From positions 1 to 25,321 of the IMG/VR virus record IMGVR_UViG_3300042353_000255: a DNA stretch of 25,321 nt; one strand, given 5' to 3'. Position 1 is the stretch's first letter; each line of letters opens with the position of its first letter. The notes below the pieces were generated by a model. The model saw only the letters and a list, made by a program, of their open reading frames with translations. It made no database searches and was not told the origin of the DNA. Source of the stretch: a virus. This document shows positions 4,819-7,764 of this stretch, piece by piece. A program made the translations under genes and the position numbers.

Positions 4819-5075
4819 GATTCTAAATTGTTAATAATTGAGATAGCTTCTTCGATTGTTTTGCACCATTTCAAATGCTGTTTGCCGCCTTTAAGCATAA
4901 CCTTCCACGGTCGGCTACTGTCATTATGATTAGTACAGTTATACGCTACAAATCTTTTTGATTTATAAGATTCTTCCTTTTTGTATTTGACCTCAATAAC
5001 CTGTAAAGATTCGTTTACATTAAAGTCAATACCCATTTGCTCGAATAAATCGATGGTTTGTTTTTTGGTTTTCAT
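4815..5075 (-). CDS. Hypothetical protein, 86 residues
   Basis: It is coupled by 4-nt overlaps to ERF upstream and the Gp157-like gene downstream. It is lysine-rich and likely alpha/beta: MKTKKQTIDLFEQMGIDF at the start, a strand-like SLQVIEVKYKKEESY, RFVAYNCTNHNDSSRPWKVML in the middle and a C-terminal helix TIEEAISIINNLES. There are two cysteines, too few for a zinc site on their own. The place in the operon suggests a recombination or DNA-processing accessory protein; no family is recognised. Confidence 0.75.
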   Translation of the reverse strand: MKTKKQTIDLFEQMGIDFNVNESLQVIEVKYKKEESYKSKRFVAYNCTNHNDSSRPWKVMLKGGKQHLKWCKTIEEAISIINNLES

Positions 5076-5614
5076 TTGGATGTAAGTAATTCAGCGTTGG
5101 CTGCGGTTAATGTATAGGCTTTCTCAATATCTGCTACGGTGGTGCTGCCTTCGCTTACGGCTTTCTTTGCGGCTTCCCATTTTGGATGCGTAGGCGTTAA
5201 TTCGGCTTTTGCTTTTGGTTGTGCAGCTGGTGCTACCGTTGCCCTTTGCGCATCATCGTCTTCATCAATATTCAAGTTCAAAGCCCCAGCGTAACTGTAC
5301 CTTTTTGCGTAGGTCAAAGCAGACCCCAAAGCCTGTGGATTGCTTGCGTCCTTGCATGGAGTAAGTGATACGCTACTAATGTATTCGCCCGATGTATGCA
5401 ATAGCATCGTCTCTAAGCCACTTTCACATGGCAACTGGATAATCGATAGCCCAACCGCGTTTAAGTGCGGTGTGGTTGCTTCTATGATGTTGCTCAAAGA
5501 TGCGTACTTGTTTTTGAAATGTGGGTTAACGGCATCCTTGCCTACCTTACCCATTAGGCCGTGAAACTTGTGTAATGCTACGGCTATTGATGTAATTGAT
5601 TCGCTGGTTTTCAT
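5072..5614 (-). CDS. ERF-family single-strand annealing protein
   Basis: Landmarks of the ERF superfamily (P22 Erf) are clear: NPHFKNKYASLSNIIEATTP (30-49), LNAVGLSIIQ (51-60), and PQALGSALTYAKRYSYAGAL (93-112), followed by the acidic DEDDDA. An alanine/proline-rich linker (127-140) and a small C-terminal helical part follow. ERF proteins anneal complementary ssDNA in phage recombination and circularisation. The 180-residue length is normal for the shorter members. The adjacent Gp157-like and DUF3127-like genes complete a recombination module. No exonuclease gene is seen next to it. Confidence 0.92.
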   Translation of the reverse strand: MKTSESITSIAVALHKFHGLMGKVGKDAVNPHFKNKYASLSNIIEATTPHLNAVGLSIIQLPCESGLETMLLHTSGEYISSVSLTPCKDASNPQALGSALTYAKRYSYAGALNLNIDEDDDAQRATVAPAAQPKAKAELTPTHPKWEAAKKAVSEGSTTVADIEKAYTLTAANAELLTSK

Positions 5615-6173: not shown

Positions 6174-6206
6174 CAAATATAGGCGTAATTTCGTTACTAC
6201 AACAAA
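6174..6206 (-). promoter_or_regulatory. Promoter with box TATATTTG, early/middle operon
   Basis: The -7 box TATATTTG (6181-6174) and a TTTG (6206-6203) with a 21-nt spacer match the Bacteroidota promoter consensus well. Within the spacer, GTAACGAA (6197-6190) sits exactly 8 nt before the -7 box, as in the promoter at 2457. The start would be near 6167. It should drive the ERF, Gp157-like, DUF3127-like and endolysin genes. Confidence 0.75.
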
Positions 6207-6225: not shown

Positions 6226-6244
6226 ATTTAGAATGATTCTAAAT
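6226..6244. promoter_or_regulatory. 19-bp perfect palindromic operator candidate, copy 1
   Basis: ATTTAGAAT-G-ATTCTAAAT has perfect 9-bp arms around one base. It lies 28 nt upstream of the GTAACGAA box, 12 bp further than in the sister promoter, about one helical turn. A dimeric regulator is the natural reader; an activator site or distal repressor site fits the position. Confidence 0.7.
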
Positions 6245-6371: not shown

Positions 6372-6411
6372 CAAAAGAAACCCGTCAAGGATAACCACAA
6401 ACCTTGACGGG
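6372..6411 (-). terminator. Rho-independent terminator at the end of the late or small-RNA transcript
   Basis: Read on the minus strand, CCCGTCAAGG (6411-6402) and CCTTGACGGG (6390-6381) form a perfect 10-bp stem with an 11-nt loop, followed by TTTCTTTTG (6380-6372). This is the strongest intrinsic terminator in the window. It would stop readthrough from the late operon into the early promoter region and would end any transcript from the box at 6474. Confidence 0.85.
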
Positions 6412-6467
6412 CTAAGTAAACGACCCATGACTGGTACGCTGTTCTAATGGTAAGCGTTCGGGTACTG
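6372..6467 (-). ncRNA. Candidate small RNA, about 95 nt
   Basis: A TATATTTG box at 6481-6474 would start a transcript near 6467, and the only clear downstream element is the intrinsic terminator at 6411-6372. The product would have a 5' part that can form a small hairpin (ACGCT/AGCGT) and the terminator hairpin at its 3' end. A 22-codon ATG frame (MGRLLSPSRFVVILDGFLLLIP) overlaps the terminator; it looks like chance but a hydrophobic peptide cannot be excluded. No homology is recognised. Confidence 0.35.
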
Positions 6468-6473
6468 TTGGTG

Positions 6474-6481
6474 CAAATATA
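6474..6481 (-). promoter_or_regulatory. TATATTTG box, operator-overlapped promoter candidate
   Basis: The -7 box is perfect but no TTTG lies at the expected distance. That place is occupied by the proximal copy of the 20-bp repeat (6487-6506), which suggests control by a protein binding there, either an activator replacing the -33 contact or a repressor. Confidence 0.45.
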
Positions 6482-6486
6482 CTATT

Positions 6487-6547
6487 TATACCCGATGCGG
6501 TATGAATTGCCACGCATTGCTCCTAAATATACCCGTTAAGGTATGAA
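6487..6547. repeat. Two direct copies of a 20-bp palindromic repeat
   Basis: TATACCCG-ATGC-GGTATGAA (6487-6506) and TATACCCG-TTAA-GGTATGAA (6528-6547) match at 17 of 20 positions. Each contains ATACC-N6-GGTAT arms. The copies start 41 bp apart, close to four helical turns, so dimers bound there would face the same side. They lie between the last gene of the late operon and the box at 6474. Confidence 0.7.
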
Positions 6548-6559
6548 ATATGCGCCTAT

Positions 6560-6760
6560 TTATTTCGCATCGCGCCCGAAAGTATCGTTTGAAAAGATAG
6601 GGCTGCCATCTAGATCTAAAGTTGGGTAATGCCTTAAACATCTCCGCGCCCGTTCCTTCAATTCCTTCACGGTCTTTGGTCGGGTGCTTGTGTTAAGTAA
6701 ATCAAACAGAAACTCACGGGTCATTAACAAAGATGCTTCTTGCTCAAAGCGTAGGCTCAT
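6560..6760 (-). CDS. Hypothetical protein, 66 residues
   Basis: It overlaps the phosphoesterase gene by 4 nt (ATGA) and is the last gene before the control region. The product is helical and charged: MSLRFEQEASLLMTREFLFD, then KTVKELKERARRCLRHYPTL with a strongly basic helix, then a loop and DTFGRDAK at the end. No family is recognised. Its coupling suggests it acts with the phosphoesterase or is co-expressed with it. Confidence 0.75.
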   Translation of the reverse strand: MSLRFEQEASLLMTREFLFDLLNTSTRPKTVKELKERARRCLRHYPTLDLDGSPIFSNDTFGRDAK

Positions 6761-7764
6761 CGAATTTTCCCCTTTATAATAGTATGGTTGTGAACAGTGA
6801 ACCCGTTATCCTGTTCGCGTTCTGCATAGGCAAATCCAAGATTCCATTTGTTGATGGGCATATACGTTGGATGCAACTCGCAAAGGCAGCCTGTTGACCA
6901 CGTGTTAACTACATGGCCGTTCATGCTTGGTTCTACGTGGCTGCTTGTTTGGTGATTGTGGCCAGCGATGCAGTTTTCTTTTCCTCTCATGTAAAGACCA
7001 CGTGCTGGGTTAACAGGCGAAAATACCGACTTGCCAAACTCGTGACCGTGCATAATGTTTAGATTACCAAACTTGATGATGCGTTTATCGTCTATAAGTT
7101 CAACTTTATGTTCTCCGAATTTTAATAATACATCCATTCTAAACTCTGGAACATCCAACAACTCAGGTGCTTTAATTCTAAGGTAGCGTTCGTATCGTTC
7201 GCAATGGTTGCCCAACTTAAAGTAAATTGGCACACCGTCAAACTCTTTTCTTATTATTTTAAGGAACTGCCGACCCATTTCAAGTTCCTCCGAAAACCGT
7301 CTTTTACGCGGGTCTTTCTCGAAGGTTGATAGCCCATAAAAGTCGAGTATATCACCGTTCAACATTATCCCGTTTACGTTGCGTTCCTTGCCGTATTGTA
7401 GGGCTAACGTAATCGCGTTAACGTTGTGGTATGGGATGTGTATATCGGATAGGATAAGTAACCGCGTTACCGATGGAGGAATGATGTATGGCTCCCATTC
7501 TACTTCATCTGAATCAGGAAGGAAAAACGGATTGGGGATGCCCATTGCTGTAGCTTGCATAGCTGGTTGTGGTTTTTCGATATTTCTATTTTGGCGGTGG
7601 GCATTGCCCGTTGTTCCGCGATAGTAGCGAATTAACGACCTTGCGTGTTCTAACGTGGTAAACAGTTCGGGGTTATCTTCGATTAGCTTTCGGGCTAATG
7701 TTACTGACGGCAAGTTAGACCACTTTAGTAATGCTTCTTTGACTACTTCGCCTACTAATGCCAT
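6757..7764 (-). CDS. Calcineurin-type metallophosphoesterase
   Basis: All metal-binding motifs of the calcineurin-like superfamily are present: D107 and H109 in SDIHIPYH, D138 in NGDILD, N186-H187 in GNHCER, H239 in IMHGH and GHNH at 268-271. It should be a two-metal phosphodiesterase or phosphatase. Residues 1-60 form a helical extension (EALLKWSNLPSVTLARKLIE and a RSLIRYYRG segment) that resembles a DNA-binding fold, so a nucleic-acid substrate is plausible; that is inference. Phage relatives commonly lie near replication or late genes, with function rarely proved. A TATATTTG box stands 4 nt before the ATG. Confidence 0.88.
   Translation of the reverse strand: MALVGEVVKEALLKWSNLPSVTLARKLIEDNPELFTTLEHARSLIRYYRGTTGNAHRQNRNIEKPQPAMQATAMGIPNPFFLPDSDEVEWEPYIIPPSVTRLLILSDIHIPYHNVNAITLALQYGKERNVNGIMLNGDILDFYGLSTFEKDPRKRRFSEELEMGRQFLKIIRKEFDGVPIYFKLGNHCERYERYLRIKAPELLDVPEFRMDVLLKFGEHKVELIDDKRIIKFGNLNIMHGHEFGKSVFSPVNPARGLYMRGKENCIAGHNHQTSSHVEPSMNGHVVNTWSTGCLCELHPTYMPINKWNLGFAYAEREQDNGFTVHNHTIIKGKIR

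Follow-up and report, generated by a model that had tools for sequence, protein, structure and literature searches.

A conserved phage RNA gene related to Abi_2-linked antitoxin RNAs, with HipB-type operator sequences at its promoter

The window analysed in this study, meaning the whole stretch of DNA, spans an entire IMG/VR virus record (25,321 bases) whose genes run on the minus strand, and it appears to belong to a phage of Bacteroidetes-type bacteria. We found no DNA similarity to deposited phages, and a search for its phosphatase in bacterial genomes returned none. Along the coding strand, a 66-aa gene (stop at 6560) is followed by a distal dyad, 25 bp, a proximal dyad, 6 nt and the box TATATTTG (6481-6474), downstream of which come about 95 nt without a gene and then a terminator (6411-6381) with its U-tract. 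The features of the locus, which we call RNA1, and of its surroundings are as follows.

6757-7764: phosphatase gene, used as query for relatives
6560-6760, minus strand: 66-aa gene of unknown function, which in most close relatives directly adjoins the RNA1 module on its upstream side
6529-6544: distal operator dyad of the HipB type, ATACC-CGTTAA-GGTAT, lying 12-16 bp beyond the 66-aa gene's stop codon
6488-6503: proximal HipB-type operator dyad ATACC-CGATGC-GGTAT, over the -33 region, ending 6 nt before the -7 box
6474-6481, minus strand: -7 promoter box TATATTTG (TAnnTTTG) with no TTG -33 element
6416-6473, minus strand: conserved RNA1 core (model R1), with the topology of abiF antitoxins
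6374-6469, minus strand: RNA1 gene; the transcript is predicted to be about 95 nt long, its start inferred from the position of the -7 box (-12 to -5)
6381-6411, minus strand: RNA1 intrinsic terminator, a 10-bp stem with loop TTTGTGGTTAT, then TTTCTTTT at 6373-6380
6174-6181, minus strand: -7 box TATATTTG that serves the following operon, which encodes the ERF-like annealing protein and others, with a TTG -33 element
5072-5614: ERF-like annealing protein gene, used as query for relatives

An earlier note on this DNA had described a 20-bp repeat occurring twice, 41 bp apart, a TATATTTG box lacking a -33 element and a strong terminator with a 10-bp stem. Our analysis confirms each of these features. 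The repeat TATACCCG-N4-GGTATGAA is found exactly twice, at 6487-6506 and 6528-6547, with a start-to-start distance of 41 bp; with three mismatches allowed, 0.21 chance matches are expected, and both copies have 0 mismatches. There is no TTG 16-26 nt upstream of the RNA1 -7 box in the window, and the proximal copy lies over the -33 region. The terminator arms (6381-6390 and 6402-6411) are complementary at 10 of 10 positions around an 11-nt loop and are followed by TTTCTTTT. The consensus of the -7 element is TAnnTTTG (PMC9723704); among the relatives the RNA1 box is always TAnnTTTG, with nn varying freely, and a TTG -33 element is absent from every RNA1 promoter inspected. The next operon owns a -7/-33 promoter, suggesting that RNA1 is a separate unit. 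The palindrome TTTAGAATGATTCTAAA at 6227-6243, upstream of the promoter of the ERF operon, is kept in several relatives.

We collected relatives by using the phosphatase and the ERF-like protein as queries. A covariance model, R1, built from 11 phage copies and from phage sequences only, finds exactly one copy of RNA1 in each of 18 of 25 related phage records and none in the other seven. The RNA1 core is 88-98% identical to that of the window, compared with 74-83% at the DNA level for the neighbouring phosphatase gene, and the close relatives have in common, between the 66-aa gene and the ERF operon, the block AACAGTACCCGAACGCNTACC..AGAAC.GCGTACCAGTC..GGGTCGTTT. The repeats are likewise retained by close relatives in which the surrounding genes are preserved, which is the opposite of what the earlier note had named as a refutation. 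The core consists of an outer stem, a 5-bp inner stem ACGCN/NGCGU and a 3' bulge ACCAG, and conserved unpaired segments are present. When phage and bacterial RNA1 sequences are aligned on one fold, 97.5% of the cells are paired, against 15-43% when the alignment is slid, and 16 cells show double changes against 4.5 in shuffles. Loop and bulge lengths differ by 1-3 nt among the relatives, so that RNA1 is not coding; a small open reading frame was rejected, as all frames are broken by the loop indels and no start codon is kept. The earlier description of about 95 nt of non-coding sequence thus stands, since none of its frames is conserved in the relatives. The two arms of the terminator differ completely in sequence from one relative to another, and their complementarity is kept. 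We also considered RNA1 as an attenuator of the downstream operon and rejected this, because the core stays the same while the arms vary and because the downstream operon is served by a -7/-33 promoter of its own. A regulated small-RNA gene, which had been called plausible, is therefore supported in that the RNA is conserved, structured and present once in each of 18 phage records.

Several other features of the relatives were observed. The ends of records G001, G003 and G004 have terminal overlaps of 45-127 bp, and therefore these records are circular or complete; they contain few or no opposite-strand genes, and no lysogeny genes were noticed by eye. At the equivalent place, relatives without RNA1 carry another candidate small RNA with a TACATTTG box, a TCTGTTT motif and a terminator (L006 at 2131, L008 and L009 at 7055, L010 at 1762, L013 and L014 at 7112).

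In most relatives a tandem paralogue, RNA2, directly follows the RNA1 terminator, with its own TATCTTTG box and terminator and a stem kept through double changes at three pairs. RNA2 is absent from the window. In one relative (L004) terminators of like sequence (loop GGTTTGTGGTTATCC) flank the piece that is missing from the window, so its loss by recombination appears likely. The earlier note had offered as an alternative that the site is the leftover promoter of a lost gene; this finds no support for RNA1, and what the window has lost is RNA2 instead. The RNA2 of L004 matches the Rfam abiF family with an E value of 0.0002 and 32.7 bits, which is below the gathering score of 37. The RNA2 pattern also matched unrelated viral contigs, one of which matches Rfam abiF with the same topology (E 0.029, below the gathering score). 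Orphan abiF-like RNAs were seen in unrelated viral contigs L318 (4685-4737), L319 (11597-11640), L317 and L320, and an Abi_2-like gene was not found in these four loci.

A search of 396 genomes with R1 gave 11 strong bacterial matches (E 2e-6 to 1.3e-4), and in nine of them an Abi_2 gene lies behind the RNA and its terminator, as judged with a local HMM; at three of the loci (L517, L519, L523) Abi_2 was confirmed with Pfam PF07751. In the tenth match, L516, the contig end cuts just inside the same start, and in the eleventh, L526, there is only a similar N-terminus, by eye. Among the 18 weaker matches (L528-L545) one has a marginal Abi_2 match. The model of RNA2, R2, gave three matches in 297 Bacteroidota-phylum genomes, two of them before Abi_2: in L514 the Rfam abiF RNA (RF03085) is matched at 57.4 bits directly before an Abi_2 gene, in L515 the gene is broken, and L513 is without Abi_2. 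We also observed in L527, around 1500, a bacterial tandem of an RNA1-like and then an abiF-like RNA, which is the phage order; by eye, it directly precedes an hsdR-like restriction gene, not abiF. RNA1 itself gives no match to Rfam abiF, and for this reason we do not assign it to RF03085, although the fold of that family, with an outer stem, a short inner stem, a loop of about 11 nt and a 3' bulge, is common to RNA1 and RNA2. RNA1 is thus homologous, by neighbourhood and fold, to Abi_2-linked antitoxin RNAs and represents a subfamily, Abi_2-linked in Bacteroidota, that Rfam does not cover. It has been reported that in C. difficile the abiF-motif RNA RCd22 lies before abiF and neutralises AbiF by direct protein binding, also in trans, that its stems are required, and that it acts on the protein and generally not on mRNAs (PMC12373285). 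In the AbiF-type (Abi_2) abortive-infection toxin-antitoxin systems of bacteria, the arrangement is promoter, RNA, terminator and abiF toxin gene, of which the phage keeps the first three only; with the RNA upstream of both terminator and abiF, part of the role of the bacterial RNA may be in cis. We found no Abi_2 in the 18 phage records with RNA1, and none of the viral loci retrieved has it either, so the phage RNA1 is toxin-less and, together with the Abi_2-linked bacterial matches, is best read as a stand-alone antitoxin RNA. The link between RNA1 and AbiF rests on genomic neighbourhood and shared topology. Neither RNA1-type RNAs nor orphan hip operators of phages turned up in our literature searches.

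Each 20-bp repeat contains the dyad ATACC-N6-GGTAT (6488-6503 and 6529-6544), and in the window and in the three genomes complete by terminal overlap hip-type dyads occur only at the RNA1 site. A scan of viral sequences for pairs of ATACC-N6-GGTAT with the gap left open between 15 and 45 found them in at least 120 viral stretches; among the matches listed, 93 of 121 viral pairs have a spacing of 40 or 41 (log10 P = -84 against uniform spacing). In a larger bacterial set, obtained by searching genomes with the spacing fixed at 40-41, a HipB-like gene lies by the dyad pair in 91 of 118 loci and HipS- and HipT-like genes in 81 each. An unbiased sample of 198 genomes, with dyad spacing left open, contained the pair in 12 genomes, always spaced 40-42 bp and always with HipB adjoining (12/12). 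The trio in L340, comprising couple_hipB (TIGR03070), a HipA N-terminal domain (TIGR03071) and HipA_C, has the HipBST order. The sequence rule of hip operons in Bacteroidota is TATACC-N6-GGTATA, twice at 40-42 bp, and the distal 16-mer of the window has an identical copy in 8 of 115 bacterial hip-operator loci. The window dyads are therefore identical with hip operators, and binding by HipB is what their sequence suggests. These results support the earlier suggestion of a second regulator; the repeats correspond to operators that hosts have at toxin-antitoxin operons, and the TTTAGAATGATTCTAAA palindrome is unrelated to them.

No hipB, hipS or hipT was found in the window or in the records of four relatives, three of them complete by terminal overlap, and no HTH_3 protein was found in 13 RNA1 phage records. 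Because no hipB was found, the dyad pair of the window is regarded as an orphan operator, and the lack of a HipB-type HTH protein implies a host regulator; the dyads as the operator of a phage-encoded regulator were rejected on the same 13 records. Among viral loci with the dyad pair there is no hipS or hipT, and a hipB-like gene is present in one unrelated locus only. As a separate observation, hip-type pairs at 40-41 bp are present without hip genes in many unrelated viral contigs (L197-L315, such as L202, L209, L241 and L253), with further pairs in L054, L057 and L058; they are mostly intergenic and often a few bp from a stop codon of terminase, tape measure or endolysin genes. Pairs beside terminase genes and outer inverted repeats in some contigs had given rise to the idea of a packaging or attachment site, which was dropped because the arms are no more complementary than random and the bacterial loci show hipB.

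In the RNA1 promoters inspected, the slot upstream of the -7 box is filled by one of three dyad types, whose end lies 6 nt from the box (7 nt in one case); in sister phages it is the second or the third type that is found there. The second, GT[AC]AG-N8-CT[TG]AC, is doubled at 32-33 bp and occurs in 29 viral stretches, with a spacing of 33 in all inspected. Arrays of this dyad, some degenerate, lie directly upstream of XRE genes for mobile mystery protein A in L468, L472, L473, L477 and L483; in L468 and L477 this gene adjoins Fic-domain protein B, and in L440 the dyad lies 3 nt before a mobA-like pseudogene (by eye). RelB/ParD had been considered as its owner (L439), and mobile mystery protein A was preferred after the upstream regions of mobA were inspected. 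Pairs of the mobA type, all with a spacing of 33, were also noticed in about 20 viral contigs outside the RNA1 family (L443-L464). The third type, GTTCA-N7-TGAAC, is found in L003, L067, L174 and L193 and also in L007 near 7000; a search of 396 Bacteroidota-phylum genomes for it gave two chance-level matches and no owner. L174 has in addition an intact hip-type pair at 41 bp, L020 has a gene inserted between operators and RNA1, and the second dyads of the pair are degenerate in several relatives. Judging from the hip and mobA loci, two of the three types thus correspond to sites of autoregulation in host modules made up of an XRE protein together with a kinase or a Fic protein.

Taken together, we consider it quite probable that the locus is a stand-alone phage gene for an AbiF-type antitoxin RNA that neutralises host AbiF and whose promoter is held by host HipB. 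Transcription, HipB binding and the sign of its control, the trigger and the neutralisation of AbiF are all parts that we infer. According to this proposal, host HipB would cover positions -34 to -19 and keep RNA1 low; when HipB is absent, displaced, titrated or degraded, RNA1 would be made, and it would then bind the host AbiF toxin and neutralise it, thereby protecting the infection. In bacterial hip loci with a visible TAnnTTTG box the operator mostly lies 17-19 nt before the box, as compared with 6 nt in the window. Because of this difference from the hosts, and because other phages carry the pair without RNA1, it is possible that repression of RNA1 is not the sole use of the dyad pair. 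A wider proposal, that phages wire toxin-less AbiF antitoxin RNA to host toxin-antitoxin repressors (HipB, mobile mystery protein A and a third) so that loss of these labile antitoxins in the course of infection switches the RNA on as a counter-defence, is one that we advance tentatively, judging its chances as somewhat short of even. Since hip-type pairs occur in about 100 other viral contigs among the matches listed, and mobA-type pairs in about 20, phages may quite generally use orphan operators of host toxin-antitoxin systems as sensors.

Other readings of the same data need to be weighed. The host regulator could be an activator, with the dyad replacing the -33 element and RNA1 made only when HipB or a MobA-like protein is present. 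Such a role is possible, as every RNA1 promoter inspected lacks a TTG -33 element and the dyad-box spacing is fixed across three dyad types; however, HipB proteins have been described as autorepressors (PMC8262856), a missing -33 element is no proof of activation, and the constant spacing may come from a common ancestry of the -7 region. We regard activation as unlikely. It is still less probable that RNA1 is an AbiF-type antitoxin RNA whose dyads serve mainly as decoys that titrate host HipB and disturb HipBST, with promoter control incidental. The many pairs in unrelated phage contigs, mostly intergenic, often near a stop codon and with no TAnnTTTG box 6 nt away, would fit decoys, and one replicated pair per genome could titrate a regulator. 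Yet in all RNA1 phages examined except L020 the dyad ends 6-7 nt before the RNA1 -7 box, a position that a decoy does not need, and a freed hip promoter would raise the antitoxin as well as the toxin. We likewise give little credence to the idea that RNA1 regulates phage or host mRNAs by base-pairing with them and is like abiF RNA by shared ancestry only. Stand-alone small-RNA genes often act by pairing, and the unpaired segments noted above could serve this, but a duplex-energy search in five genomes found no orthologous phage gene start that is consistently a good partner, and conservation falls on the parts that RNA1 has in common with Abi_2-linked RNAs, of which RCd22 acts on protein. Finally, a decaying remnant of an abiF operon and a hip operon once carried by the phage would agree with the absent toxin genes, the degenerate second dyads and the loss of RNA2, but it is highly improbable, as RNA1 is more constrained than the neighbouring gene and keeps its pairs through double changes, the -7 box is kept, the terminator stays complementary despite arm changes, and an intact ancestor is not seen, the viral loci containing no Abi_2, HipS or HipT.

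AbiF counts as an ancestor-like relative of Cas13; only recently has the antitoxin RNA of AbiF been characterised. A conserved phage family with the RNA but without the toxin would represent a natural AbiF inhibitor. The operator rule describes the HipB sites of hip operons, and the same dyad pair is present without the operon in many phages; whether phages sense the toxin-antitoxin state of the host can thus be tested directly. Phage copies of an antitoxin RNA against abortive infection have a precedent in phage PhiTE, in which, according to Blower and colleagues in 2012, a pseudo-ToxI copy of a type III antitoxin RNA reportedly evades ToxIN abortive infection; this RNA is said to have arisen in escape phages. 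RNA1 differs in toxin family and RNA fold and in being a conserved, regulated gene. Similarly, a phage promoter under a host stress repressor is reportedly known from the CTX prophage, controlled by host LexA (Quinones 2005, cited in PMC4439123), whereas the regulators of RNA1 would be antitoxin-type repressors of host toxin-antitoxin operons and its product an antitoxin RNA. As for the operators, hipB of Legionella HipBST is also preceded by several inverted repeats at even spacing, with arms of 6 nt, to which HipB binds in gel shifts, but they have another sequence and 53-bp gaps (PMC10653801), unlike the Bacteroidota and phage dyads TATACC-N6-GGTATA at 40-42 bp. An abiF sRNA has been predicted in cyanophage S-CREM1, another phage genome with an abiF-type RNA, though from a different host group and, in the part of that source available, as one Rfam hit only, with no analysis of promoter, operator or terminator and no RNA1-type RNA (PMC9964418). 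The closest known system is RCd22-AbiF, or abiF RNA RF03085, with which the phage RNAs share the outer stem, a short inner stem, an 11-14-nt loop, a 5-6-nt 3' bulge and a GGGUCGUUU-like trailer, as well as their own promoter, an intrinsic terminator, bacterial homologues directly before Abi_2 and, in most relatives, two tandem motifs. They differ in that no toxin gene follows the phage RNA and the RNA1 subfamily is not detected by Rfam. A single RCd22 transcript contains two motifs; among the phage RNAs there is one motif per transcription unit, each unit with its own -7 box and terminator, and the window has RNA1 only. Unlike the RCd22-AbiF system, moreover, the phage promoter carries the operators of other toxin-antitoxin systems.
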